A DNA stretch of 36,580 nt, from IMG/VR virus record IMGVR_UViG_3300044641_003835, positions 1 to 36,580 of that record; one strand, written 5' to 3'. This stretch comes from a virus. The position numbers and the translations under genes were made by a program. Below are positions 6,753 through 19,327 of the stretch, in pieces. The stretch's first letter is position 1. Every line of letters begins with the position of its first letter. A model generated the notes under the pieces. That model did no database searches, was not told the DNA's origin, and saw nothing but the letters and a program-made list of their open reading frames with translations.

Positions 6753-7691
6753 ATGGAAAAAGTATTAATTACAGGTGGTGCTGGATATTTGGGGTCAACC
6801 CTTTGTGAACACTTATTAAATAATGGGTATTCTGTGACAGTTTTGGATAATTTAATGTTCAAACAAATGTCACTACTACATTTATTTAAAAATGAAAATT
6901 TTAATTTTATTTTAGGCGATGTTAGAGATAAAGAATTATTACAAAAATTAGTATTAGAACATAATGTTATCATTCCATTAGCGGCAATAGTGGGTATGCC
7001 TGCGTGCAAAGCAAATCCTCAATTAGCAACTGATGTAAATTATAAACAAATTGAACATATTGTTGAAATCCTTAAACCTAATCAAAAGTTAATATTACCA
7101 AATACTAATAGTCAGTATGGTTCATCAGACACAATTATAACTGAAGAAAGTCCATTTAAACCATTATCACATTACGCAAAAACAAAATGTGACGCTGAAG
7201 AATTACTATTAAAATCAAAAAATGGTATTGCTCTTAGATTAGCAACTGTTTTTGGAGTATCACCAAGAATGAGAATGGATTTATTAGTAAATGATTTTGT
7301 TTATAAAAGTATTACTGATGGATATCTAGTATTATTTGAATCTCATTTTAAAAGAAACTATATCCATGTACAAGATATTGCTAGAACGTTTGAGTTTATG
7401 ATTAAAAATTATGAAGAGTGTAATGGTCAAGCATTTAATGTTGGTTTGTCTACGGCAAATCTAAGTAAGTTTGAATTGGGACAAAAAATAAAAGAGTATG
7501 TACCAAATCTAGTTATTAAAGAGGATAACTTTAAAGAAGATTTTGATAAAAGAAATTATATTGTGTCAAATGAAAAACTAGAATCTAAAGGATGGTTACC
7601 AAAATATAATTTAGATTATGGTATTAAACAATTAATTTCATCATATAAAATGATTGGTAACTTCATAAACAAAAACTTTACTAATTTGTAA
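6753..7691 (+). CDS. NAD(P)-dependent nucleotide-sugar epimerase/dehydratase (extended SDR)
   Basis: This 312-residue extended short-chain dehydrogenase acts on a nucleotide-activated sugar, by 4-epimerisation, 4,6-dehydration or keto reduction. The Rossmann dinucleotide motif GGAGYLG (G8, G11, G14) opens the protein. The catalytic pair is Y141 and K145 in SHYAKTK, preceded by the Ser/Thr segment NTNSQYGSS. A substrate-domain signature (FNVGLSTANLSKFELG) and KRNYIVSNEKLES toward the C-terminus recall LPS-cluster epimerases. It could supply the 4-keto sugar used by the 3-dehydratase encoded at 13573-14748, but the exact reaction is not readable. Confidence 0.85.
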   Translation: MEKVLITGGAGYLGSTLCEHLLNNGYSVTVLDNLMFKQMSLLHLFKNENFNFILGDVRDKELLQKLVLEHNVIIPLAAIVGMPACKANPQLATDVNYKQIEHIVEILKPNQKLILPNTNSQYGSSDTIITEESPFKPLSHYAKTKCDAEELLLKSKNGIALRLATVFGVSPRMRMDLLVNDFVYKSITDGYLVLFESHFKRNYIHVQDIARTFEFMIKNYEECNGQAFNVGLSTANLSKFELGQKIKEYVPNLVIKEDNFKEDFDKRNYIVSNEKLESKGWLPKYNLDYGIKQLISSYKMIGNFINKNFTNL

Positions 7692-7695
7692 AAAT

Positions 7696-9225
7696 ATGGA
7701 TGTTTTATTTATTACCCCCGGAAACTCAACTGGGGTTTATCAAAATTTATCAACTAAATACTCATCAATTGAACCCCCAACTTGGGCATTGTTATTAGCT
7801 GAATCTTGTCGTTCAGTTGGTTTTTCAGTTTCACTCATAGATGTTAATGCTGAACAATTATCAAATGATGAAGTTTTAGAAAGAATAAATCAAATAAACC
7901 CAAGATTATTATGTTTTGTTGTATATGGACAAAACGTTAACGCTGGAACTGTTAATATGGGTGGAGCCACATTTTTGTCTAATTATTTAAAAGAAAATAA
8001 TGTTGAGACACCAATTTGTTATATTGGTTCTTACATACAAGCGTTACCTATTAAATGTCTTAAAGACGAAAAAAGTATTGATTTTGGTTTTACTAATGAA
8101 GGGGTATATGCTTTAAGAAATGTTTTATCTCTAAACGAGATTAATAACGAAACTATTAAAGATATCAGAGGTGTTGTTAGAAGAGAAGATGAGAATGTTA
8201 TTATGAATCTTCCCGAAAAAGTTGTCCCAAACGATAGAATGGATATTGATTTACCAGGTTATGCTTGGGACTTACTACCATTTAAAAATAAACCATTAGA
8301 TTTATATCGTGCGCCTATGTGGCACGCAGAGTACGACCAAGAAAAACGAAGTCCTTATGCGGCAATCCAAACATCATTAGGTTGTCAATTTGGTTGTGAT
8401 TTCTGTATGATTAATATTTTAAATAGAAATGACAATGATGAAATAGGTGTTGCGGGTAATTATAGTGCAATGAGATTTTGGTCACCAGAATTTATAATAA
8501 AAGAATTTGATAAATTAGTTGAATTAGGTGTTCATACAATTAAAATCACTGATGAAATGTTTCTTTTAAATAGAAAATATTATGTACCACTATGTGAAAT
8601 GTTAAAAGAAAGAGGATATGGTAAATTTTTAAGAATGTGGGCGTATTCTAGAGTTGACACAGTTCGTAGACCTGACTTATTAACATTAGTAAGAGAAGCG
8701 GGGATAAAATGGTTAGCCCTAGGAATTGAGAGTGGGGATAAAACGGTACGTCTAGAGGTATCCAAAGGTAAGTTTGAGGATGTTGATATCCAAAAAGTTA
8801 TTGAGCAAGTACACGATGCTGATATTGAGGTTATGGCCAATTATATATTTGGTTTACCTGGTGATACAATATCTAGTATGGAAAAAACTTTAGAGTTGTC
8901 TAAAGAATTATGTACTTTTGGGTGGAATGCTTATGCTGCAATGGCATTACCGGGTAGTAAATTATATAAAGATGCTTTACAAAATAACATTCCATTACCA
9001 TCAACTTATGAAGGGTTTTCGTTTCATTCATACGAAACTTTACCACTCCCAACTGAAACTTTAACCGCCGCCGAAATTTTGAGATTTAGAGATGATGCTT
9101 ATTATGACTACCATACTAACACAAATTTTTTAAATAAAATTAGAAGTAAATTTGGACAAGTGGCTGTTGACAATATTAATGAAATGGTTAAAATTAAATT
9201 AAATAGAAAAATATATAATGATTAA
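7696..9225 (+). CDS. Cobalamin-binding-type radical SAM protein (class B-like)
   Basis: The 509 residues have an N-terminal Rossmann-like region (1-180) resembling B12-binding domains of radical SAM proteins. The radical SAM core has the 4Fe-4S motif C230-x3-C234-x2-C237 in LGCQFGCDFC, and later IKITDEMF, LALGIESGD and YIFGLPGD, typical of the BchE/phosphonate-methylase-like group. Such enzymes cut S-adenosylmethionine to 5'-deoxyadenosine and methylate or rearrange unreactive carbons. I did not see a clear DxHxxG cobalamin motif, so cofactor use is uncertain. Placed among sugar genes, C-methylation, epimerisation or ring chemistry on a nucleotide sugar is plausible. It overlaps the next gene by 8 bases. 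Confidence 0.85.
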   Translation: MDVLFITPGNSTGVYQNLSTKYSSIEPPTWALLLAESCRSVGFSVSLIDVNAEQLSNDEVLERINQINPRLLCFVVYGQNVNAGTVNMGGATFLSNYLKENNVETPICYIGSYIQALPIKCLKDEKSIDFGFTNEGVYALRNVLSLNEINNETIKDIRGVVRREDENVIMNLPEKVVPNDRMDIDLPGYAWDLLPFKNKPLDLYRAPMWHAEYDQEKRSPYAAIQTSLGCQFGCDFCMINILNRNDNDEIGVAGNYSAMRFWSPEFIIKEFDKLVELGVHTIKITDEMFLLNRKYYVPLCEMLKERGYGKFLRMWAYSRVDTVRRPDLLTLVREAGIKWLALGIESGDKTVRLEVSKGKFEDVDIQKVIEQVHDADIEVMANYIFGLPGDTISSMEKTLELSKELCTFGWNAYAAMALPGSKLYKDALQNNIPLPSTYEGFSFHSYETLPLPTETLTAAEILRFRDDAYYDYHTNTNFLNKIRSKFGQVAVDNINEMVKIKLNRKIYND

Positions 9226-9982
9226 TTTAAGTGTAATTATACCAGGTATAAGACCCGAAAATTGGGTTGCAATATACCATCAATTAAATGATAGTATTTC
9301 ACCATTTAATTTTGAACTTATCTGTGTTGGTCCTAATTTACCACCTAACGAACTTACAGAATATAAAAATTTTAAATACATTAAGGACTTTGGTACACCT
9401 AGTCGTTGTCTACAAATTGGTAGTGAATTTGTTGAGGGTGAATTTTTATGTTGGGTTCCAGACGATGCAATAATTGAAAAGTCGGCTTTATATGAAAGTT
9501 TAGAATTTATGTATAAAAACTCAAACGAAAATGATGGGATGTGTTTATTATATTCTGAAGGTGTTGATTACACTGGTGACCAACATTTAACACCTGAGTA
9601 TTGGGTAGGTGTTACACATAGAGACCAAAGACATGCACAGGTGAATCCATCATGGAAAATAGCCCCTGTTTTTCTATATAGAAAAAAACTTTTTGATGAA
9701 TTAGGGGGGTTAGATTGTCGATTTGAACATGTTAATATGAATACCCATGATTTAGCGTATCGTGTACAACATTTAGGTGGGACTATTCATATGTCACCAA
9801 GAAAAATATTAGGTGTTAGTTGGGTCGAAAATCAAAAGGTAATCACTGAAGCTTACTATGAAAACGATTCCCCATTATTTGCGGAATTATACAATAAACC
9901 AGAATTTCCAAGAGTTATAATAGATAAAAACAATTGGAAAGAATCCCCAAGTATTTGGGAAAGAAGATTTAATAAAATATGA
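9218..9982 (+). CDS. GT2-like glycosyltransferase
   Basis: The 254-residue GT-A protein opens with LSVIIPGIRPENW (first beta strand). It has FELICVGPN as the second strand region, CWVPDDAII as a DxD-like metal site near residue 80, and a C-terminal acceptor region with MNTHDLAYRV. It would transfer a sugar from a nucleotide donor in the host cytoplasm; donor and acceptor are unknown. It starts 8 bases inside the radical SAM gene and its stop overlaps the methyltransferase start by 4 bases, so the three are coupled. Confidence 0.8.
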   Translation: MINLSVIIPGIRPENWVAIYHQLNDSISPFNFELICVGPNLPPNELTEYKNFKYIKDFGTPSRCLQIGSEFVEGEFLCWVPDDAIIEKSALYESLEFMYKNSNENDGMCLLYSEGVDYTGDQHLTPEYWVGVTHRDQRHAQVNPSWKIAPVFLYRKKLFDELGGLDCRFEHVNMNTHDLAYRVQHLGGTIHMSPRKILGVSWVENQKVITEAYYENDSPLFAELYNKPEFPRVIIDKNNWKESPSIWERRFNKI

Positions 9983-10533
9983 AATTACATTTAGGTTGCT
10001 ATCAAAAAAAGATTTATGGGTTTACTAACATAGACATTAGAGAGGATGTGAATCCTGATATTGTTGATGACGTTTTTAAACTTGAAAAAATTAAAGATAA
10101 CTCAGTTGAGTTAATATATGTTTGTCATGTTTTAGAACATGCTACAATTGAGGAAGCGAAATCTGCGATTAAAAGATGGTATCAAATTTTGAAACCTGGT
10201 GGTGTTTTAAGAATTGCGGTACCTGATTTAGAAGCGGTTTTTGAACATTATATTTTTCATAAAGATTTAAAAATTTTAAATTCTTTTATTTATGGTTCTC
10301 AAAAACACGATTATGACTATCATAGATGTGGATGGGATGAAAAGACACTAACAGAATTTTTAAAAAGTGTTGGGTTTGATTCTATTTGTAGATACGATTG
10401 GAGAGAAACAGAACATTTTTACATTGATGATTATTCACAATGTTATTTACCAGAAATGTCATATAAAAGTAGAAGATTAAATGATGAAATTAAAGGAAAA
10501 TTAATGAGTTTGAATATTGAGGCAATAAAATGA
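9979..10533 (+). CDS. Class I SAM-dependent methyltransferase (COG4627-like)
   Basis: The 184-residue enzyme has the shortened motif I KLHLGC at the very N-terminus, then a conserved NIDI acidic strand end, IVDDVFKL, the motif VLEHATIEEA, and LKPGGVLRIAVPDLE (post-motif III). This is the layout of small predicted methyltransferases common in surface-polysaccharide clusters. It probably O- or N-methylates a sugar made by the island. The product S-adenosylhomocysteine would be a substrate for the nucleosidase at 15245-15796. It overlaps both neighbours by 4 bases. Confidence 0.85.
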   Translation: MKLHLGCYQKKIYGFTNIDIREDVNPDIVDDVFKLEKIKDNSVELIYVCHVLEHATIEEAKSAIKRWYQILKPGGVLRIAVPDLEAVFEHYIFHKDLKILNSFIYGSQKHDYDYHRCGWDEKTLTEFLKSVGFDSICRYDWRETEHFYIDDYSQCYLPEMSYKSRRLNDEIKGKLMSLNIEAIK

Positions 10534-11453
10534 AAACAGTTTTAGTAACAGGTGCTAATGGACTACTTGGTTCGGCAATTAAAAAAAATTCGGTAAATTA
10601 TCAGTATAAATTTCATTTTATTGGAAGAACTGAATGTGATTTAACGTCACAGATACAAGTACAAAATTTAATTAATGAAATTAAACCAAATTATGTAATA
10701 CATACTGCGGCAAGTGTTGGAGGTATCGGTTTAAATATATCTAAACCTATAAACCAATTCTATAAAAATCTTTTGATGAATAGTTTTTTAATCCATGAGA
10801 GTGCATTAAATGGGGTGGAGAAGTTTATAAATTTCTCATCTATTTGTGCTTTTCCGGGTAATATTACATCAATAACTGAAGATTTATTACATGAGGGTAC
10901 TCCATTCCAAGACCATTTTTCATATGCACAAGCCAAAAGAATTTCAGACATCCAGATTGAGATTTATAATAAAAATTTTGGACTTAACTATATGTCGTTA
11001 ATTCCAACAAACATTTTTGGTGAAAATGATAACTACAATTTAAATTTTGGTCATGTTATACCATCATTAATACACAAGTGTTATTTAGCTAAAAAAACAA
11101 ATACACCATTTATCGTTTGGGGTGATGGAACCGCTATTCGAGAATTTATATATTCAGATGATTTGTCAAAAATTTGTTTAGATATATTATCAATAGATAC
11201 ACCACCCCAAAAAATTCTTACATCTAACTCAATACCATTAACAATAAATCAAGTTGTTAATAAAATTTGTGAAATATTCGATTATAATAATTTAGTTTGG
11301 GATACAACAAAACCAAATGGTCAATTGATTAGAAAAACTAACAATAATGTACTAAAAAGTGTGTTACCTAACTTTAATTTCACTGATTTTGATATTGCGT
11401 TAGAAAATAGTGTTAGATGGTTTATTGACAATTACCCTAAAATTAGATTATAA
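10530..11453 (+). CDS. GDP-L-fucose synthase-like epimerase/reductase (Fcl/ColC-like SDR)
   Basis: The 307-residue SDR has VTGANGLLG (G8, G11, G14) for NADP(H), the FSSICAFPG serine strand, Y132 and K136 in SYAQAKR, and IPTNIFGENDNYN plus FIVWGDGTAIREFIYSDD, all typical of GDP-4-keto-6-deoxymannose 3,5-epimerase-4-reductase. That enzyme makes GDP-L-fucose; the close relative ColC makes GDP-L-colitose from a 3,6-dideoxy-4-keto precursor. Because a ColD-type dehydratase is encoded downstream, a ColC-like role is as plausible as fucose synthesis. DdahC/MlghC heptose reductases are also related. Family is sure, substrate is not. Confidence 0.88.
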   Translation: MKTVLVTGANGLLGSAIKKNSVNYQYKFHFIGRTECDLTSQIQVQNLINEIKPNYVIHTAASVGGIGLNISKPINQFYKNLLMNSFLIHESALNGVEKFINFSSICAFPGNITSITEDLLHEGTPFQDHFSYAQAKRISDIQIEIYNKNFGLNYMSLIPTNIFGENDNYNLNFGHVIPSLIHKCYLAKKTNTPFIVWGDGTAIREFIYSDDLSKICLDILSIDTPPQKILTSNSIPLTINQVVNKICEIFDYNNLVWDTTKPNGQLIRKTNNNVLKSVLPNFNFTDFDIALENSVRWFIDNYPKIRL

Positions 11454-11461
11454 TTATAAAA

Positions 11462-12067
11462 ATGAAAAAATACACATCACAAGAATTAGTAAATTTTGAA
11501 ACCTTAATTGGTGATTTATTTAATGAGGGCAAAATAAAAGCCCCAATACATCTATATGATGGAAACGAAGACGAAATGATTAATATATTTGAAAATATTA
11601 ATGATGACGACTGGATTTTTTGTACTTGGAGGTCACATTACCAATGTTTACTGAAAGGTGTTCCACAGGATATACTAACTAAAGACATTTTAGATGGTAA
11701 ATCTATTACGTTATGTTATCCCGAATTTAATATCTATTCATCAGCCATTGTTACCGGGAGTATTCCAATCGCAACAGGTGTTGCATTAGACATAAAACGT
11801 AAAGGACAAACAAACCATGTTTGGTGTTTTGTTGGTGATATGTCATCTGAAACTGGTACTTTTTTTGAAAACTGGAAATATTCGGTTAATCATGATTTAC
11901 CTATTACATTTGTTATTGAAAATAACAATAAATCTGTTTGTACTATAACTAGTGAAGTTTGGAATTCTAATGAATTGTTTTTTAAAAATGAAACAAGAAA
12001 AATAATTTATTATGAATACGAATCTAGATATCCTCACGCTGGTTCTGGAAAAAGAATACAATTTTAA
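11462..12067 (+). CDS. Thiamine diphosphate enzyme, E1 alpha-like subunit
   Basis: The 201-residue protein resembles the pyrophosphate-binding domain of 2-oxo-acid dehydrogenase E1 alpha or a transketolase N-terminal half. Recognisable parts are FCTWRSHYQCLLKG (E1 alpha-like), TGSIPIATGVAL, and the thiamine diphosphate/Mg motif GDM (G125-D126) followed after about 29 residues by N154-N155-N156. The third motif residue is Met rather than Gly. It is shorter than PDH E1 alpha (over 300). The next gene encodes the matching E1 beta-like half. By analogy with the paired PDH-like proteins of avilamycin biosynthesis (AviB1/AviB2), it may add a two-carbon branch to a sugar. Confidence 0.8.
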   Translation: MKKYTSQELVNFETLIGDLFNEGKIKAPIHLYDGNEDEMINIFENINDDDWIFCTWRSHYQCLLKGVPQDILTKDILDGKSITLCYPEFNIYSSAIVTGSIPIATGVALDIKRKGQTNHVWCFVGDMSSETGTFFENWKYSVNHDLPITFVIENNNKSVCTITSEVWNSNELFFKNETRKIIYYEYESRYPHAGSGKRIQF

Positions 12068-12080
12068 AAACAAAAAAAAA

Positions 12081-12617
12081 ATGAAATACTTTGATGAATT
12101 AAAAAAATCTATGGACTGGTTAGGTCAAAAAAATGATACCTTGTTTTTAGGTCAAGCCGTGGAATATGCTGGTACCGCTATGACTAACACATTAAAAGAT
12201 ATTGATAGAACAAAACTTTTAGAAATGCCAGTAAATGAAGATATGCAAATGGGGTTATCTTTTGGGATGGCCTTAAATGGTACAGTCCCAATTTCAATAT
12301 ACCCAAGGTGGAACTTTTTACTTTTATCGGCCAATCAAATTGTGAATCATATCGATAAAGTTAAATTAATGTCTAATGGTGGATATACACCCAAAATTAT
12401 CATAAGAACCTCAATCGGTTCTCAAAGACCATTACATCCCCAACATCAACATGTGGGAGATTTTACGTCAGGATTTAAAGCAATGTGTGATTTTGTTGAT
12501 ATAATACGATTAGATGAACCATATCAAATCTTTGAAGCCTATAAATATGCCTATGAAAGAACTGATAATAGACCAACTATTTTAGTAGAATGGGGTGATT
12601 ATTATAATGAAAAATAA
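12081..12617 (+). CDS. Thiamine diphosphate enzyme, E1 beta-like subunit
   Basis: ATG 12081 is chosen over 12012: it follows an A-rich leader 13 bases after the preceding stop and gives the normal N-terminus MKYFDELKKSMDW. The 178 residues match the pyrimidine-binding domain of E1 beta: LFLGQAVEYAGTAMT, then MPVNED with the catalytic-type E53 that activates thiamine diphosphate, GLSFGMALNGTVPIS, and the IIIRTSIGSQRPLHPQHQH loop with histidines. The usual C-terminal transketolase domain is absent, so this is a minimal enzyme. It probably forms an alpha2beta2 complex with the product of 11462-12067. Confidence 0.8.
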   Translation: MKYFDELKKSMDWLGQKNDTLFLGQAVEYAGTAMTNTLKDIDRTKLLEMPVNEDMQMGLSFGMALNGTVPISIYPRWNFLLLSANQIVNHIDKVKLMSNGGYTPKIIIRTSIGSQRPLHPQHQHVGDFTSGFKAMCDFVDIIRLDEPYQIFEAYKYAYERTDNRPTILVEWGDYYNEK

Positions 12618-12634
12618 AAAAAAAAATAAAAAAA

Positions 12635-13576
12635 ATGAAAAAAATTTTAGTAGTTTATAATTGTTGTGGAATACGACAGGATAATTTACCAATGTGGACA
12701 TCACATTTAAACAATATTTTAAAACAAGATTATCAAAATTTTGATTTATGTATTTCAGGATGTTTAATTTCAGAAAACGCAAAATCTTATTTTAAAAGTT
12801 TAAAAGACCAATATCAAGATAAAATTATTTTAAGTTTTATTGATGAAGTATTACCAGTTAATATTACGTTTAATAAAACTTGTATTGAATCATCAAAGTA
12901 TAATGATTACGATGGTTTTATGTATGTTGCATCTGATATTGATTTTAATGATGATGTAAGTGTAATATCAAAGTTAGTTAATTTACATTATAGTAGTAAT
13001 ATTGGAATCACTTCAGCGGTAGTTTCAAATGATTCGGGTATTGATGTTTGGTTAGGTAATCATATACTTAACCAAGTTTTAAATGAAAATCATTTTGAAA
13101 TCCCGGTTGGTAAAACTTTGAATTTACATTGTATGATATTTGATAAAAAAATATTTGATTCATATGACCAAAAAATAATTCCAGATATTTTTAGAACATA
13201 TTGTACTGAAAGTGTTTTTTCATTTATCACGTCATCTCTTAGTATGAAGTATATGATTCACAATAAGAGTATTATTCTCACTCATTTAGTTGGTCGTGAT
13301 GGTAGTAGTGTTGGTTTTAATGGCGCTAGAGGGTGGCAAGATATGTTTAACCCAAACATACCAGTAGAACAAAGATTAATGACACAAGAAGCTAAAGATT
13401 GTGGATTTGGGTATGAGGAATATATTGATATTTTTATCCATGATTCCAATAAATATAATGAGGACAACACACATAAAAATCCAGAAATACTTTACAATTT
13501 TAACAAAAAAAGTTTATACTTAACTGAACAAGAATTTAATTACAATAATATAAATATACAATTTCTCCCTAAATGA
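12635..13576 (+). CDS. GT-A-like glycosyltransferase
   Basis: The 313-residue protein begins KKILVVYNCCGIRQDNLPMW and has LKQDYQNFDLCISGC (GT2 second strand region) and VASDIDFND as a DxD-like site near residue 107. Its C-terminal half carries ILTHLVGRDGSSVGF and a 60-residue Asn-rich tail. This is the organisation of divergent phage GT2-type enzymes. Donor and acceptor are unknown. It overlaps the next gene by 4 bases (ATGA), tying it to the sugar pathway. Confidence 0.72.
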   Translation: MKKILVVYNCCGIRQDNLPMWTSHLNNILKQDYQNFDLCISGCLISENAKSYFKSLKDQYQDKIILSFIDEVLPVNITFNKTCIESSKYNDYDGFMYVASDIDFNDDVSVISKLVNLHYSSNIGITSAVVSNDSGIDVWLGNHILNQVLNENHFEIPVGKTLNLHCMIFDKKIFDSYDQKIIPDIFRTYCTESVFSFITSSLSMKYMIHNKSIILTHLVGRDGSSVGFNGARGWQDMFNPNIPVEQRLMTQEAKDCGFGYEEYIDIFIHDSNKYNEDNTHKNPEILYNFNKKSLYLTEQEFNYNNINIQFLPK

Positions 13577-14748
13577 ATAAATTTAAATTACCATTAATGG
13601 ACGATAACATCACAAAAGAAGATGTTCAGTCGTTAGTTGACTTTTTAAGTCAAGAAAAGTTACCAAAATTAACTAATGGACCTAAAGTTTTAGAGTTTGA
13701 AAATAGATGGTCAGAATGGTTAGGTATGAAGTACTCTTTAATGTTAAATTCAGGAGCGTCAGCAAATGAATTAACCCTATTAGCCCTTAATTATATATAT
13801 GGTGAGGGGGAAATCATCGTACCGCCATTAACTTGGATTTCAGATATTTCTGCAGTTCTATTTAGTGGAATGAAACCTATTTTTTGTGACATTAACCTAA
13901 AAAATTTATCTTTCAATATAGATAAATTAAAAGAGTTGATTACCCCAAATACCAAAGCGATTTTTTTAACACACGTTTTAGGTATTAATGGTTTAACTGA
14001 TGAACTTATTGAAATATGTGAAAAAAACAACATTATATTAATTGAGGATGTTTGTGAATCACATGGTACAACATTTAAAGATAAAAAAGTTGGTTCGTTT
14101 GGTTTTGTTAGTAACTTTAGTTTTTACTTTGCACATCATATGTCAACAATTGAGGGTGGTATGATTTGTACTAATGATGAGTATTTTTATCAAGTTTGTC
14201 GAGCTTTACGTTCTCATGGTATGGTTCGTGAAATGACTGATGATAACTTAAAAGAAAAAATAATTTCAGAAAACCCAGAACTTAATAGTGATTTTATTTT
14301 TTTAAGACCATCACATAACTTTAGAAGTACAGAAATTAACGCAGTTTTAGGTTTATCTCAAATAGGTCGATTGGACTCTAACAATGAAATTAGAAAATCA
14401 AACTTTAATCATTTTATCTCAAAACTAGATTCAAATAAATACATTACTGATTTAGATACTGAAGGTCAATGTAACTACGCTTTTATAATTATCCTAAAAG
14501 AAGGTACATTTGAAAAAAGAAATCAAGTTGAGTTAGAGCTAGCCAAAAATGGAATTGAGTTTAGAAGAGGTTTATCCGGAGGTGGCAATCAACTAAGACA
14601 ACCTTTTATTAAAGAAAACTTTGATATAAACTACGATGATTTTAAAACTATTGATTATGTCCATAATTTTAGTTGGTATGTAGGGAATTACCCAACATTA
14701 ACAACTTCAAAGATAGATAAATTATTAGAAGTATTAAACAACATTTAA
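13573..14748 (+). CDS. PLP-fold sugar 3-dehydratase (ColD/E1-like) of the DegT/DnrJ/EryC1/StrS family
   Basis: The 391-residue protein has the family fold: NSGASANELTLLAL, IIVPPLTWISDISAVLFSG, and the PLP-ring Asp in IILIEDVCESHGTTF. The usual Schiff-base lysine segment reads SFYFAHHMSTIEGG, with H188 in the lysine place (five residues before EGG, as in ArnB). Replacement of Lys by His is the known mark of 3-dehydratases: ColD, where the active residue is His188, and the CDP-sugar enzyme E1. These remove the C3 hydroxyl of a 4-keto-6-deoxyhexose using PLP or PMP. A 3,6-dideoxysugar product is therefore likely. GDP versus CDP carrier cannot be read. Confidence 0.87.
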   Translation: MNKFKLPLMDDNITKEDVQSLVDFLSQEKLPKLTNGPKVLEFENRWSEWLGMKYSLMLNSGASANELTLLALNYIYGEGEIIVPPLTWISDISAVLFSGMKPIFCDINLKNLSFNIDKLKELITPNTKAIFLTHVLGINGLTDELIEICEKNNIILIEDVCESHGTTFKDKKVGSFGFVSNFSFYFAHHMSTIEGGMICTNDEYFYQVCRALRSHGMVREMTDDNLKEKIISENPELNSDFIFLRPSHNFRSTEINAVLGLSQIGRLDSNNEIRKSNFNHFISKLDSNKYITDLDTEGQCNYAFIIILKEGTFEKRNQVELELAKNGIEFRRGLSGGGNQLRQPFIKENFDINYDDFKTIDYVHNFSWYVGNYPTLTTSKIDKLLEVLNNI

Positions 14749-14750
14749 TA

Positions 14751-15242
14751 ATGGATGAGGTTATTGTTTATGAAAATAGTTCTTTTAAAGATGAACGGGG
14801 TGAGTTATGGACTATTTGGGAAAAATCTAAATTCACACCTAATCTAATTTTTAATCACGATAAAGTTGCTAAATCAAAAAAAAATGTTTTAAGAGGTTTA
14901 CATGGTGATTCTAAATCGTGGAAACTTATTACTTGTTTATATGGTGAAATATTTCTATCGGTAGTTGATTATAGAGAATCTTCACCAACATACTTAAAAC
15001 ACATTAATTTTATTCTTAATGATGTGAACAAAAAAACGGTATTAGTACCACCAATGTTTGCTAATGGACATTTAGTTTTAAGTGATGAATGTGTTTTTTA
15101 TTATAAATGGGCTTATGAAGGAGATTATCCTGATGTTGATGAACAATTTTCACTTAGATGGGATGACCCTAAATTAAATATTGAATGGCCAACCCAAACC
15201 CCAATTCTATCTGATAGAGATAAAAACTCAAAATTTTTATAA
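14751..15242 (+). CDS. RmlC-like nucleotide-sugar 3,5-epimerase (cupin)
   Basis: The 163-residue cupin opens FKDERGELWTIWEK. It has VLRGLHGD with the catalytic histidine, a barrel strand region VPPMFANGHLVLSD, and ends with YKWAYEGDYPDVDEQF and LRWDDPKLNIEWP, as in dTDP-4-keto-6-deoxyglucose 3,5-epimerase. Family members invert C3 and/or C5 of 4-keto sugars. The usual AHGF segment reads ANGH, so substrate preference may differ from RmlC. It follows the 3-dehydratase by 2 bases. DdahB/MlghB-type heptose epimerases are relatives, of interest because a heptose-kinase-like gene is nearby. Confidence 0.85.
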   Translation: MDEVIVYENSSFKDERGELWTIWEKSKFTPNLIFNHDKVAKSKKNVLRGLHGDSKSWKLITCLYGEIFLSVVDYRESSPTYLKHINFILNDVNKKTVLVPPMFANGHLVLSDECVFYYKWAYEGDYPDVDEQFSLRWDDPKLNIEWPTQTPILSDRDKNSKFL

Positions 15243-15244
15243 AA

Positions 15245-15796
15245 ATGAATGAATGTTATATTGTAGCATTAAAAGATGAAGTTAATGGTAAAAATGAACT
15301 AAATGGTAAACCTATTTTTTATTCTGGTGTTGGTAAATTAAATGCCGCTCTATGTATGATGGATGTAATTAATAAAGGTTATGATAGTATTATTAATATT
15401 GGTTCCTGTGGGTCTAAAAATCATAAAGTTGGGGAGTTACTAAAAGTTGGTAAAGTTTACCAAGATATTGACGTTAGACCAATTTCTGATTATGGGATTA
15501 CATCATCAGAATCTGAAAGATATATTTTATTAGACGATAGTTCAGGCATAAGTTGTTTTACCACTGATTATTTTTTTGACCATAATGATATTGAAAGATA
15601 TTCAAATGAATACCTAAATATGGTTGATACAACATCAATCATAGATATGGAATGTTATAGTTTAGCCAAAGTAGCTAATTATTTTAACATAAATTTTAAA
15701 TCGTATAAATGGGTTTCAGATGATGGTGATTTTAATCAGTGGATAAATAATTGTCGTTTAGGTCTAGAAAAATATTTAGATTTAATTAAACTATAA
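15245..15796 (+). CDS. MTA/SAH (5'-deoxyadenosine) nucleosidase-like protein
   Basis: The 183-residue protein belongs to the purine nucleoside phosphorylase / MTAN fold: GVGKLNAAL near residue 30, INIGSCGS near residue 56, and the ribose-binding DME (D134-M135-E136) segment IIDMECYSLA. WVSDDGD supplies the likely catalytic acid near the C-terminus. MTAN enzymes cleave adenine from methylthioadenosine, S-adenosylhomocysteine and 5'-deoxyadenosine. The last two are by-products of the methyltransferase and radical SAM protein of this island, so a clean-up role is a reasonable inference. It is shorter than E. coli MTAN (232), mostly through loss of loops. Confidence 0.78.
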   Translation: MNECYIVALKDEVNGKNELNGKPIFYSGVGKLNAALCMMDVINKGYDSIINIGSCGSKNHKVGELLKVGKVYQDIDVRPISDYGITSSESERYILLDDSSGISCFTTDYFFDHNDIERYSNEYLNMVDTTSIIDMECYSLAKVANYFNINFKSYKWVSDDGDFNQWINNCRLGLEKYLDLIKL

Positions 15797-15810
15797 TTAT
15801 ATTTTTAAAA

Positions 15811-16587
15811 ATGATAGATAAAAAAAAATACGAAAATATTAACGTTTTAGTTATTGGAGATACTTGTATTGATAAATTTAGTTATGGTAGTGTTGTACGT
15901 TTAGCCCCCGAAGCACCAGTACCAGTAATTAATCCTGAATACTCAACCGAAAATAAAGGAATGGCGGGTAATGTTGATGAAAACATTAAATCAATTGGGG
16001 GAAACGCAATCTTATTATCCAATTATGAATCAGTTATAAAACATAGATTAGTTGATAAACGTAGTAATCAAATATTATTAAGAATTGATGAAAATGATAA
16101 AGTTTCTAGAATAGATAGAGAACTACTAATAAGAATTAAAAATAATCACTTTAACAATGTTAAAATTGATGCCATCATAATTAGTGATTATGACAAAGGT
16201 TTTTTAGATGAGGAAGATATTCAGTTTATTTGTGAAAATAATACCAATGTATTTATTGACACTAAAAAGATATTAGACACTTGGTGTGTTAATTCAACAT
16301 TCATAAAAATAAACCATGTGGAGTATGAACACACTAAATTTAATTTAAAAGATTTAAGTATAAGTGATAAACTTATCATTACCTTATCAAGTGATGGGTG
16401 TCAATATAAAGACAAAATATATCCAGTTGAGAAAGTTAAAATAAAAGACGTTTCTGGTGCTGGTGATACTTTTATGTCAGCTCTAGTCCTAGAGTACGTT
16501 AGAACATTAGATATTGAGAAATCAATCTTATTCGCACAAGAGTGTGCAACAATTGTTGTACAAAAAATTGGTGTTACAACAATTTAA
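15811..16587 (+). CDS. PfkB-family sugar kinase, heptose-7-phosphate kinase (HldE/RfaE N-domain)-like
   Basis: The 258-residue ribokinase-fold protein opens NVLVIGDTCIDKFSYG and LAPEAPVPV, the pattern of the kinase half of HldE (D-glycero-beta-D-manno-heptose-7-phosphate 1-kinase). KGMAGNV corresponds to the GGAANV substrate loop. VSGAGDTF carries the anion hole and catalytic base D219. It is about 60 residues shorter than the HldE kinase domain, and no nucleotidyltransferase domain is attached or encoded nearby. It may phosphorylate a heptose or related sugar for activation. It ends the main sugar island. Confidence 0.82.
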   Translation: MIDKKKYENINVLVIGDTCIDKFSYGSVVRLAPEAPVPVINPEYSTENKGMAGNVDENIKSIGGNAILLSNYESVIKHRLVDKRSNQILLRIDENDKVSRIDRELLIRIKNNHFNNVKIDAIIISDYDKGFLDEEDIQFICENNTNVFIDTKKILDTWCVNSTFIKINHVEYEHTKFNLKDLSISDKLIITLSSDGCQYKDKIYPVEKVKIKDVSGAGDTFMSALVLEYVRTLDIEKSILFAQECATIVVQKIGVTTI

Positions 16588-16605: not shown

Positions 16606-17349
16606 ATGACAAGAAGAAAACAAGACAAACCATCACCAATTTTAGAGGAAGATGGGAGACAATTAAGTAAGAAAGACCTAATTGGGAAAATAATTAAAAA
16701 GAAACCAAAGGAGAAGTTTTTAACTGAAAACCAACGAAAGTATTTTGAAATATTAAAACACAATCAAATTACTATTTGTTCGGGTCCTGCTGGGGTTGGT
16801 AAAAGTTATGTTGCAATGAACGCAGCACTATCATTATTAGCTGACCCAAGTAACCAATATGAAAAAATAATTATTGTGAGACCAGCAGTTGAAGCTGAAG
16901 AAAAATTGGGGGCTTTACCCGGAAATGTAGAAGAGAAATTAGACCCCTATATTTTCCCATCATATTATTTAATGAATAAGATTATTGGAAAAGAAGCTCG
17001 TGAGAAATTAAAAGAATTGGAATTTGTTGAGGTTTTCGCGTTGGCTTATATGAGAGGTATGAATATTGATAATTCAATTCTGATTTTTGAGGAAGCACAA
17101 AACTCAACACCAAATCAAATGAAATTACTATTGACAAGGATTGGATTTAATAGTAAATTCTTTATATCGGGTGATTTAGAACAAACGGATAGGTATAAAG
17201 ACAAAACACATTCTGGACTATGGGATGCTATTCGTAAATTTAAAAATGTACGTGAAATAGGTGTTTTTGAATTTGGTAGTGAAGACGTTGTTCGTAACCC
17301 ATTAATTAGTCATATATTAGAAAAATACGAAGATGAGAATAGGAATTGA
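16606..17349 (+). CDS. phoH: PhoH-like P-loop ATPase
   Basis: The 247-residue protein has Walker A GPAGVGKS (60-67), a Walker B-type LIFEEAQN near residue 165, and the ISGDLEQTDR sensor segment, together diagnostic of the PhoH family common in T4-like and marine phages. A KRPKP-like basic N-terminal stretch of about 45 residues precedes the ATPase core. The cellular role is unsettled; RNA helicase or nuclease-linked functions are proposed for relatives. Its last 17 bases overlap the next gene. Confidence 0.92.
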   Translation: MTRRKQDKPSPILEEDGRQLSKKDLIGKIIKKKPKEKFLTENQRKYFEILKHNQITICSGPAGVGKSYVAMNAALSLLADPSNQYEKIIIVRPAVEAEEKLGALPGNVEEKLDPYIFPSYYLMNKIIGKEAREKLKELEFVEVFALAYMRGMNIDNSILIFEEAQNSTPNQMKLLLTRIGFNSKFFISGDLEQTDRYKDKTHSGLWDAIRKFKNVREIGVFEFGSEDVVRNPLISHILEKYEDENRN

Positions 17350-17998
17350 GGTTAATGGTGTTTTAAGAGATACCATTGGTAAATTTAAACAACTTTATGA
17401 AAAAAATCTTGTTGAGTTAAATGATGCTGACCCAACTGAGAAAACATTTGAATTAACATTTTCAGGTGAAACTGATGAGGTTGTTGAAATGAATGAAGTT
17501 GATGATGTTAAACCATTTAAATATGAAATATTAGGTGAGATTACATCATTAGATTTACAAAATTATTTCTCTTTCCAATCAAAGGATGAATTGTATTCTT
17601 TTATGTATGAAGAATATACTATGGAATTGTTTGGTCACGCCCCATCCACCGAAACTTTAACATTTAATTATCTAAATGATTTTTATATGAATTTAAGAGA
17701 TAATCACGAAATTGTTATTGTATCAGATGAGATAGGTAAATCAAAACCAGCAACCCTATTTTTCTTATCAAAGTTCGGATGTCAGTTAGAAAAGGTAAAA
17801 TTTTATAGTAATTATACAATAAATTCGATGTGGGATGAAATTGATATTTTACTTACGGCTAATCCTGCCTTATTATTAGAGTATCCATCAAATAAAAAAG
17901 TTATAAAATTTGAAACGTCATATAATCAGAATGTTAATTCAGATATTGAAATCAAATCACTTAATGAGTTGGAAAATAAAATAAAAAATTTATTGTAA
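17333..17998 (+). CDS. Degenerate HAD-like (5'-nucleotidase-type) protein
   Basis: The 221 residues look like a HAD phosphatase fold whose motif I reads IEVNGVLRDT instead of DxDGVLxD: the nucleophile Asp is Glu (E6) and the acid/base Asp is Asn (N8). Motif II may be IVIVSDE, motif III the KSKPATLFFLSK helix, and motif IV the WDEIDILLTANP segment. With both motif I aspartates changed it probably has no classical phosphatase activity and may bind a nucleotide or a protein. An acidic insert (residues 30-65) separates core and cap. It overlaps PhoH by 17 bases and the next gene by one (TAATG). Confidence 0.6.
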   Translation: MRIGIEVNGVLRDTIGKFKQLYEKNLVELNDADPTEKTFELTFSGETDEVVEMNEVDDVKPFKYEILGEITSLDLQNYFSFQSKDELYSFMYEEYTMELFGHAPSTETLTFNYLNDFYMNLRDNHEIVIVSDEIGKSKPATLFFLSKFGCQLEKVKFYSNYTINSMWDEIDILLTANPALLLEYPSNKKVIKFETSYNQNVNSDIEIKSLNELENKIKNLL

Positions 17999-18258
17999 TG
18001 TTTAAAATTTTAGGAGAAACCTATTATATTGATTTGGATAAAATGGAATCTTATATCAATATCCCCCAAGAATCTGGGGCTACAGAACAACATATCAGTG
18101 TAGTAAAATACGATATGGTAAAATTAATGGCTGAGGTTGTTATGAGTGTTGAGTCAGAAACCGATGAAACTTTAGGGTTAAAAAATTCTGATTTAAGTAT
18201 CCCATTCAAATTAGCATTTAATACACTTTTAAATAAAAAAATAATAAACAAATATTAA
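17998..18258 (+). CDS. Small phage protein of unknown function
   Basis: The 86-residue protein starts MFKILGETYYIDLDKMESYI and has two predicted helices, one containing VKYDMVKLMAEVVMS. It carries no motif I recognise. Its ATG overlaps the upstream stop by one base (TAATG), so it is coupled to the HAD-like gene, and a glycosyltransferase follows 5 bases later. Confidence 0.65.
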   Translation: MFKILGETYYIDLDKMESYINIPQESGATEQHISVVKYDMVKLMAEVVMSVESETDETLGLKNSDLSIPFKLAFNTLLNKKIINKY

Positions 18259-18262
18259 TACT

Positions 18263-19327
18263 ATGAATCAAGAACAAGTAGCAAAACTGGAACTTTCAAT
18301 CCAAAATATGAAAGACAAAAAATCAAGGATTTATTTTATTGTACAAGACACTAAAGGAAATGCTAGAGCGTCAATCTCATACATTTATAGATTAGCTATG
18401 TCTTTACTAAACAATGGTTACAACGCCATCATATTACATGAAAAACCTGACTACACTGGTGTAGGGGAATGGTTAGGTGAAGAATATATGACTAAGTTAC
18501 CTCACACAGCAATTGAAGGTCAGAATTTAGAGGTCGCACCAGAAGATTTTATTGTTATCCCTGAATTATTCGGTTATATTATGAGTCAAGTAACTAAATT
18601 ACCTTGTGGTAAAATTATTCTATCTCAAGCATATGACCATATACTAGAAACACTTCAACCAGGTGAAACTTGGACACAACTAGGTTTCTTAAAAGTTATC
18701 ACAACATCTGAAGCACAAAAAGAATTTATTGATAATTTAATGAAAAATGTATCGGTTGATATTTTACAACCATATGTTAGTGAAAGTTTTTATAAACAAA
18801 CATTACCACCAAAACCAATCGTTTCTATTCACACTCGTGACCAAAGGGATACTATGAATATAATAAAAACATTTTATATTAAATACCCTCAGTATAGATG
18901 GATTACATTCCGAGATATGAGAAATTTGAGTGAACATCAATTTGCTGCTGGAATGAGAGATACTTGTTTGTCAGTTTGGGTTGATGAAACAAGTGCTTAT
19001 GGTACTTACCCCCTTGAATCAATGGTAACTGGTGTTCCGGTATTAGGTTTAGTACCAAATTTAGTACCATCTTGGATGAATGAAAAAAATGGTTTTTGGA
19101 TTAACAATAAATTACAAGCGGTTGACGTGATTGCTGATTTCATCCAACATTGGCTTGAGGATAACGTTAATGAAGAACTTTATACTGAAATGGAAAAAAC
19201 AGTTACGGAATTAAAAACTAAAGAAGATTTTGAAAAAGAAGCTATTAGTTTATTTGATGGTTATATCACCACAAGATTAACCTCATTTGAAGAACAACTA
19301 TCTAAACTTGAAACAATTGAAGAATAA
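18263..19327 (+). CDS. GT-B fold glycosyltransferase-like protein
   Basis: The 354-residue protein has a GT-B outline. An N-terminal Rossmann half starts at SRIYFIVQDTKGNARASISY and includes NAIILHEKPDYTG and FIVIPELFGYIM. A C-terminal half follows, with VSIHTRDQRD, ITFRDMRNLSE and a donor-site-like YGTYPLESMVTGVPVLGLVP where the conserved Glu (LESM) would contact the nucleotide ribose. It ends in a coiled-coil-like tail. It would use a nucleotide sugar; the acceptor is unknown. It pairs with the GT2 gene starting 1 base after its stop. Confidence 0.75.
   Translation: MNQEQVAKLELSIQNMKDKKSRIYFIVQDTKGNARASISYIYRLAMSLLNNGYNAIILHEKPDYTGVGEWLGEEYMTKLPHTAIEGQNLEVAPEDFIVIPELFGYIMSQVTKLPCGKIILSQAYDHILETLQPGETWTQLGFLKVITTSEAQKEFIDNLMKNVSVDILQPYVSESFYKQTLPPKPIVSIHTRDQRDTMNIIKTFYIKYPQYRWITFRDMRNLSEHQFAAGMRDTCLSVWVDETSAYGTYPLESMVTGVPVLGLVPNLVPSWMNEKNGFWINNKLQAVDVIADFIQHWLEDNVNEELYTEMEKTVTELKTKEDFEKEAISLFDGYITTRLTSFEEQLSKLETIEE

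Follow-up and report, generated by a model that had tools for sequence, protein, structure and literature searches.

Known systems and the viral gene cluster

Counterparts of the C4-dehydrogenase, the RmlC-type epimerase, the C3-dehydratase, the Fcl-type reductase and HddA/HddC/GmhA of the GDP-heptose modification in Campylobacter jejuni (Cj1427/Cj1430/Cj1428; 3,6-dideoxy-heptose in HS:5 and HS:11; PMC10680097, PMC10440746) are present in a sugar gene module which we analyzed in a virus fragment, and in its relatives. The fragment, IMG/VR record IMGVR_UViG_3300044641_003835, comprises 36,580 nucleotides (36.6 kb, G+C 29.5%) and is called the window at its full length. Cj1427 oxidizes C4 of GDP-heptose, driven by alpha-ketoglutarate and with O6 retained, and together with the HS:5 C3-dehydratase it yields GDP-3-deoxy-4-keto-heptose in vitro; such 3-deoxy-heptoses were called novel by the authors (PMC10680097). 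In C. jejuni, however, the C3-dehydratase acts after a 4,6-dehydratase, Cj1427 and the C3-dehydratase have been joined in vitro only, and the paper (PMC10680097) mentions neither a thiamine diphosphate (ThDP) enzyme nor a radical S-adenosylmethionine (SAM) enzyme.

For the branching of keto sugars three enzyme classes are distinguished in a 2025 review, namely decarboxylases (YerE), aKADH2 (E1alpha/E1beta) and transketolases, the latter encoded by split genes and proposed only (PMC12247030). In the biosynthesis of yersiniose A a 3-dehydratase is likewise followed by a ThDP enzyme which extends a 3-deoxy-4-keto sugar by two carbons at its keto carbon, but the substrate is a CDP-hexose and YerE is a decarboxylase-class flavoprotein and no E1alpha/E1beta pair (PMC12247030). 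The aKADH2 pairs (AviB1/AviB2, Pau11/Pau12, KbDH) do consist of E1alpha- and E1beta-type subunits tied to a two-carbon branch; known cases are antibiotic clusters, and Pau11 and Pau12 are full-length proteins of 325 and 345 aa (PMC4425429), whereas the phage subunits have 201 and 178 aa and no E1beta C-domain. ColD and ColC of the colitose pathway share the His188 3-dehydratase and the Fcl-like short-chain dehydrogenase/reductase (SDR) with the window, yet identity to ColD is 31% and the neighbors in the window suggest a heptose. Homologous E1 halves also occur in phage sugar clusters as the "transketolase central region" of the cyanophages S-SM2 and P-TIM68; there, E1 is fused in one gene, identity is 31-38%, and no ColD-like or radical SAM homolog lies nearby.

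In the following we argue that the window encodes a heptose-based pathway in which a ColD-like enzyme removes O3 and a compact E1 pair adds a carbon branch, a reading to which we assign a probability of about 0.6. The original prediction had placed a pathway for a 3,6-dideoxy, possibly branched sugar between positions 10530 and 15242. All five genes named there (Fcl-like SDR, E1alpha, E1beta, DegT, RmlC-like) are located at these positions and their families were confirmed by Pfam and PDB matches (Pfam bits: DegT 227, dTDP_sugar_isom 139, Epimerase 149, E1_dh 60, Transket_pyr 34), but the range was drawn too narrowly: the conserved module covers 6753-16587, with the Fcl-like SDR among its less conserved members. 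The radical SAM protein and the open reading frame (ORF) at 12635-13576 had been omitted. All genes of the region lie on the plus strand:

6753-7691, plus: SDR, predicted Cj1427-like GDP-heptose C4-dehydrogenase (PDB 6vo6/6vo8 match, NTNSxYG motif)
7696-9225, plus: radical SAM protein with B12-binding-type N-domain (PF04055 and PF02310)
9218-9982, plus: uncharacterized protein, glycosyltransferase-like by eye, outside the conserved module (no Pfam match at E<=0.01)
9979-10533, plus: SAM-dependent methyltransferase, accessory, not conserved in the module (PF08241)
10530-11453, plus: Fcl/ColC-like SDR, predicted 4-keto reductase/epimerase, accessory (NF047922, PDB GDP-L-fucose synthase)
11462-12067, plus: compact E1alpha, ThDP/Mg-binding half (PF00676, 60 bits)
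12081-12617, plus: compact E1beta, pyrimidine-binding half with conserved Glu (PF02779, 34 bits)
12635-13576, plus: uncharacterized protein found in some phage clusters (no NCBIfam match, Pfam below threshold; homologs in 10/39 viral loci)
13573-14748, plus: DegT/ColD-like pyridoxal phosphate-type 3-dehydratase with His188 (ColD alignment, Pfam DegT)
14751-15242, plus: RmlC-fold epimerase, GDP-4-keto-heptose type (PDB 7ani/8dcl/8dak)
15245-15796, plus: methylthioadenosine/S-adenosylhomocysteine (MTA/SAH)-nucleosidase-like protein (NF005522, 46 bits, cut-off of 161 not reached)
15811-16587, plus: HldA-like (PfkB) heptose-7-phosphate-type kinase (TIGR02198, 136 bits, cut-off of 345 not reached)

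The probable ColD-type 3-dehydratase

The DegT protein was aligned with ColD as originally proposed (E=2e-54, 31% identity over 364 columns), and its His at residue 188, predicted to replace the Schiff-base Lys, indeed coincides with ColD His188. Wild-type ColD chains in the PDB show "shHiat" at this site, and in two engineered chains, 3b8x and 2r0t, precisely this residue is replaced (N and K). ColD is the nearest solved relative with 188 bits, followed by the CDP-type dehydratase E1 with 121 bits. The Cys cluster (Fe-S type) of DdhC and of this dehydratase E1 is absent from the window protein by direct reading; such a segment is present in locus L028. Two surveys define the counts given here and below: a scan of IMG/VR yielded 42 E1beta loci, 71-94% identical (viral neighborhoods are counted over 39 loci), and from the 165 relatives found in a scan of GTDB genomes 80 were retained, with many short contigs among them. 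Every viral homolog that covers the Schiff-base site has His there, as do 89 of the 92 DegT proteins which lie no more than 3 kb from an E1 gene and could be resolved. Most members of the DegT family are aminotransferases, which might use another lysine, but given this invariance and the proximity to ColD such an activity is hardly credible here. Well supported by homology, the protein very probably is a ColD-type 3-dehydratase which removes O3. A ColD-like DegT gene was found at 73/80 bacterial E1 loci. In one Pelagibacteraceae genome (G407:C79:5110-7207) ColD-like and SDR genes are decayed, with many in-frame stops.

The sugar substrate

The SDR at 6753-7691 is 53% identical to PDB 6vo6/6vo8 in an alignment of 302 columns (E=1e-103), the sole PDB sequence found at E<1e-50. 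This entry, which merely bears the name "putative sugar-nucleotide epimerase/dehydratase", we take to be Cj1427, the GDP-heptose C4-dehydrogenase. The NTNSxYG motif is shared by both, and a function of the SDR as 4,6-dehydratase was ruled out because the active-site Asp-Glu pair of these enzymes is missing and Cj1427 is by far the best match. Cj1427-like SDRs accompany E1 at 35/39 viral and 61/80 bacterial loci. The RmlC-like epimerase resembles the Campylobacter GDP-4-keto-heptose epimerases (1e-49 to PDB 7ani/8dcl/8dak) far more closely than RmlC of the dTDP type (about 1e-23). Moreover, HddA/HddC/GmhA/GmhB-like or HldA/HldC-like genes, including those for kinases that form heptose-1-phosphate and for nucleotidyltransferases, recur beside the module; an HldA-like kinase was detected at 23/39 viral loci and an HddA-type GHMP kinase at eight others. 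No 4,6-dehydratase, including GDP-heptose 4,6-dehydratase, was found in the window by ORF, Pfam and NCBIfam scans.

The original prediction of a 3,6-dideoxy sugar formed from GDP- or CDP-4-keto-6-deoxyhexose is not supported by these observations. It would leave the pathway without its 4,6-dehydratase in the window, while SDR and epimerase are nearest to heptose enzymes. A colitose-like 3,6-dideoxyhexose, with a two-carbon branch or none, does find support in the ColD-like DegT protein and the Fcl/ColC-like SDR, in a subfamily (L057, L069, L042) joining E1alpha/E1beta and ColD-like genes with GDP-mannose-4,6-dehydratase-like genes, and in a second E1 pair of phage L035 next to RfbH-like and dTDP-glucose-4,6-dehydratase-like proteins. 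On balance we regard it as unlikely. Since SDR and epimerase are of the heptose type, heptose-supply genes adjoin and a 4,6-dehydratase is missing, a 3-deoxy-heptose appears to be the likeliest product instead of a 3,6-dideoxyhexose, and judged from the homologs the sugar backbone is probably a heptose.

The Fcl-like SDR at 10530 matches GDP-L-fucose synthase in the PDB (1e-62) and NF047922 with 179 bits (cut-off 500). Such SDRs, mostly divergent, were found at 12/39 viral and 36/80 bacterial loci, and this variable presence ruled the gene out as a core member of the module.

The compact E1 pair

Both subunits are short, with 201 aa for E1alpha and 178 aa for E1beta. The true start of E1beta is the ATG at 12081, which gives the 178 aa of its homologs, and not the upstream ATG at 12012 of the ORF list. 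E1beta is devoid of the transketolase C-domain and retains E47, E52, R75, NHxDK and H123 invariantly across homologs; E1alpha carries a GDM...NN segment and an invariant His192, and its model (pLDDT 88) is nearest to the folds of pyruvate dehydrogenase E1alpha (3exe). Pfam and NCBIfam scans of the proteins surrounding the pair revealed no E2 or E3 families. Thus the pair shares with aKADH2 the two halves with ThDP-binding residues and the lack of E2/E3, but not the full-length subunits of about 320-345 aa.

The strongest evidence for a role as carboligase comes from loci at which other ThDP enzymes stand in its place. For this comparison 64 loci lacking the compact E1 were picked by DegT homology, with ThDP genes ignored in the picking; the Nitrospira loci among them additionally had SDR and radical SAM matches. 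Where a His-type DegT protein occurred with a Cj1427-like SDR, a ThDP enzyme was encoded within 8 kb at 23 of 24 loci, the sole exception being a 6.5-kb contig, while only 7 of 36 other His-type loci without the Cj1427-like SDR had one (p=3e-9). The substitutes were of several kinds: an E1 pair with subunits of 280 and 305 aa, another, divergent E1 pair, a split transketolase, or an enzyme like YerE. In contexts of the hexose type, too, 3-dehydratases are joined by the E1 pair (L057, L069, L042; L035), which hence seems to track the 3-deoxy-4-keto sugar and not the supply of heptose.

These contexts bear on a further explanation, according to which the heptose stays unbranched and the E1 pair is employed elsewhere, for instance in the supply of sedoheptulose-7-phosphate by transketolase-like chemistry. 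The split transketolase standing in for the pair at some loci and the fused E1 homolog in a phosphoheptose cluster of cyanophages S-SM2 and P-TIM68 speak for it. Heptose supply explains, however, neither the hexose-type contexts nor the replacement by a YerE-like enzyme, and we consider this explanation rather improbable. From the partner swaps, the compact pair probably performs a ThDP-dependent carboligation on the sugar. The original proposal of a two-carbon branch made by the pair is therefore retained as probable on the basis of the swaps, but its likeness to Avi and Pau is one to full-length pairs, unlike the compact ones described here. Position C4 and the two-carbon donor are inferred by analogy to YerE, and a branch at C4 is slightly favored.

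Related phages hold further combinations of this kind. A divergent second E1 pair (47-51%) is encoded in L035:2-3248 and L009:1-2743 beside RfbH-like and dTDP-glucose-4,6-dehydratase-like proteins. A YerE-like ThDP enzyme together with an RfbH/DdhC-type 3-dehydratase was found in L026, L028, L031, L036 and L037 (in L026 the YerE-like gene at 757-2559 and the DdhC-like gene at 16989-18302, both on the minus strand), and in these phages a yersiniose-type pathway is possible.

The radical SAM protein and accessory genes

The radical SAM protein is present at 62/80 bacterial loci, and its model reaches a pLDDT of 91.9. The best folds are the diol dehydratase AprD4 (6fd2, 7e-19) and the B12 methylase MgmA (9ccb, 2e-18), two functions between which the fold comparison does not discriminate, and with 57 bits the protein falls far below the AprD4 family cut-off of 500 (NF033070). 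That the C6-C7 diol of the heptose side chain is its target is speculation.

An MTA/SAH-nucleosidase-like gene occurs at 16/39 viral loci and a gene for adenine phosphoribosyltransferase at 13, where it lies beside the nucleosidase-like gene (L006:13219-13719 and 12 other viral loci). This suggests the salvage of adenine from radical SAM by-products. In addition, phage locus L009 encodes an L-2-hydroxyglutarate oxidase (LhgO; 500 bits, curated cut-off 299), with homologs at five phage and 11 bacterial loci, often adjoining the Cj1427-like SDR; the phage genes lie in sugar clusters (L009:15289-16458, also L008, L011, L012 and L045). Phage LhgO apparently recycles the by-product of the Cj1427-like dehydrogenase. 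Neither LhgO nor the nucleosidase and phosphoribosyltransferase neighbors had been sought beforehand, and both fit the predicted chemistry.

Two further proteins were seen near the module. A short uncharacterized one (window:6332-6733) is kept in 21/39 viral loci (about 48-89%), and a 538-aa protein with an FkbM methyltransferase domain is encoded 3' of the module in L009:13676-15289 and 18 other viral loci.

Distribution of the module

We count about 39 viral contigs with the module and 80 loci in bacteria, among them Nitrospira, SAR11 and Verrucomicrobiota; phages and distantly related bacteria thus have the gene set in common. E1alpha was found at all 80 bacterial loci. Within Nitrospira, 17 of 79 genomes encode the compact E1beta, and all 17 have strong matches to the radical SAM protein, ColD and the SDR (p 1e-14 to 1e-17). 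Among 147 genomes of Pelagibacteraceae E1 is present in 16, accompanied by ColD in 14 and by the radical SAM protein and the SDR in 13 each. Hypergeometric p values across both profiles range from 4e-10 to 1e-17, uncorrected for kinship. In a profile of 195 Verrucomicrobiota genomes E1 was detected in the seed genome alone.

Gene order varies between loci and phage glycan clusters are mosaic, as would be expected of a chance gathering or of decaying cargo without a joint pathway. The repeated co-occurrence across phyla and phages, the purifying selection on the module genes (pN/pS 0.04-0.35) and the phyletic profiles largely contradict this explanation, which is very improbable.

A tree of the E1 sequences places nearly all copies from phages in a single group, which includes two bacterial rows, L053 (Bacteroidales) and L063 (Parcubacteria), whereas L052 falls among Verrucomicrobiota. 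Both L053 and L063 are contigs of metagenome-assembled genomes, and they may represent binned phage DNA or recent transfers. The phage context assumed originally holds for the window: it contains T4-type head genes (major head protein and head maturation protease) as well as genes for PhoH and dUTPase. The closest match of the capsid is an uncultured phage, along with Microcystis and Flavobacterium phages at 41-43%. The fragment presumably derives from a virus of aquatic bacteria. The major head protein (window:30439-32286) is long with 615 aa and is matched by known phages in two separated pieces only, which suggests an inserted domain.

Proposed pathway and implications

The pathway would start with an activated heptose provided by the HldA-like kinase and host or other phage enzymes. 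The Cj1427-like SDR would then oxidize C4, its NADH being recycled by reduction of alpha-ketoglutarate to L-2-hydroxyglutarate, which LhgO may reoxidize in related loci. By homology, the ColD-like His enzyme would take off O3 to give GDP-3-deoxy-4-keto-heptose and return alpha-ketoglutarate from glutamate. E1alpha/E1beta, for which the partner swaps suggest a two-carbon transfer, would place an acyl unit, donated by pyruvate or a similar compound, on a keto carbon of the sugar, most simply C4, resulting in a branched 3-deoxy-heptose. RmlC-like epimerase and Fcl-like SDR would fix the configuration at C5 and reduce a ketone, the radical SAM enzyme would contribute either a methylation or a diol dehydration, with its adenosine by-products cleared by the nucleosidase, and phage glycosyltransferases may attach the sugar to the host surface or the virion.

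Several points weigh against this pathway. No assayed enzyme of the compact E1 family was found in the literature. At some Pelagibacter loci (L153, and L154, a 6.5-kb fragment) the ColD-like gene is present but a ThDP gene is not seen. The 24 loci of the swap comparison are not independent events because the Nitrospira sister loci are closely related, and the exchanged ThDP types may differ in their donor, so that the branch is not necessarily identical. Moreover, the window kinase is of the beta/ADP-heptose (HldA) type and not HddA, and kinase and nucleosidase-like protein both stay below their family cut-offs (136 against 345 and 46 against 161 bits).

Overall, the original prediction was right on the 3-dehydratase, plausible and by now better supported on the branching, and probably wrong on the sugar. 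For a natural branched or 3-deoxy-heptose, or for this gene set, the open-access literature yielded only the C. jejuni in vitro work. We tentatively put forward an undescribed class of sugars, GDP-linked 3-deoxy-heptoses which a two-carbon branch at C4 brings to nine carbons and which a radical SAM enzyme modifies further. SAR11, Nitrospira, Verrucomicrobiota and other bacteria could synthesize them, and T4-like phages could encode the pathway with the compact E1. If true, GDP-3-deoxy-4-keto-heptose, until now obtained in vitro only, would also be formed in nature, and a branched heptose would occur in aquatic bacteria that are among the most common. Branching by E1-type enzymes and split transketolases, for which antibiotic clusters have provided most of the known or proposed cases, would be extended to surface polysaccharides, and phages would carry the same chemistry, probably to change the surface of their host or their own particles.

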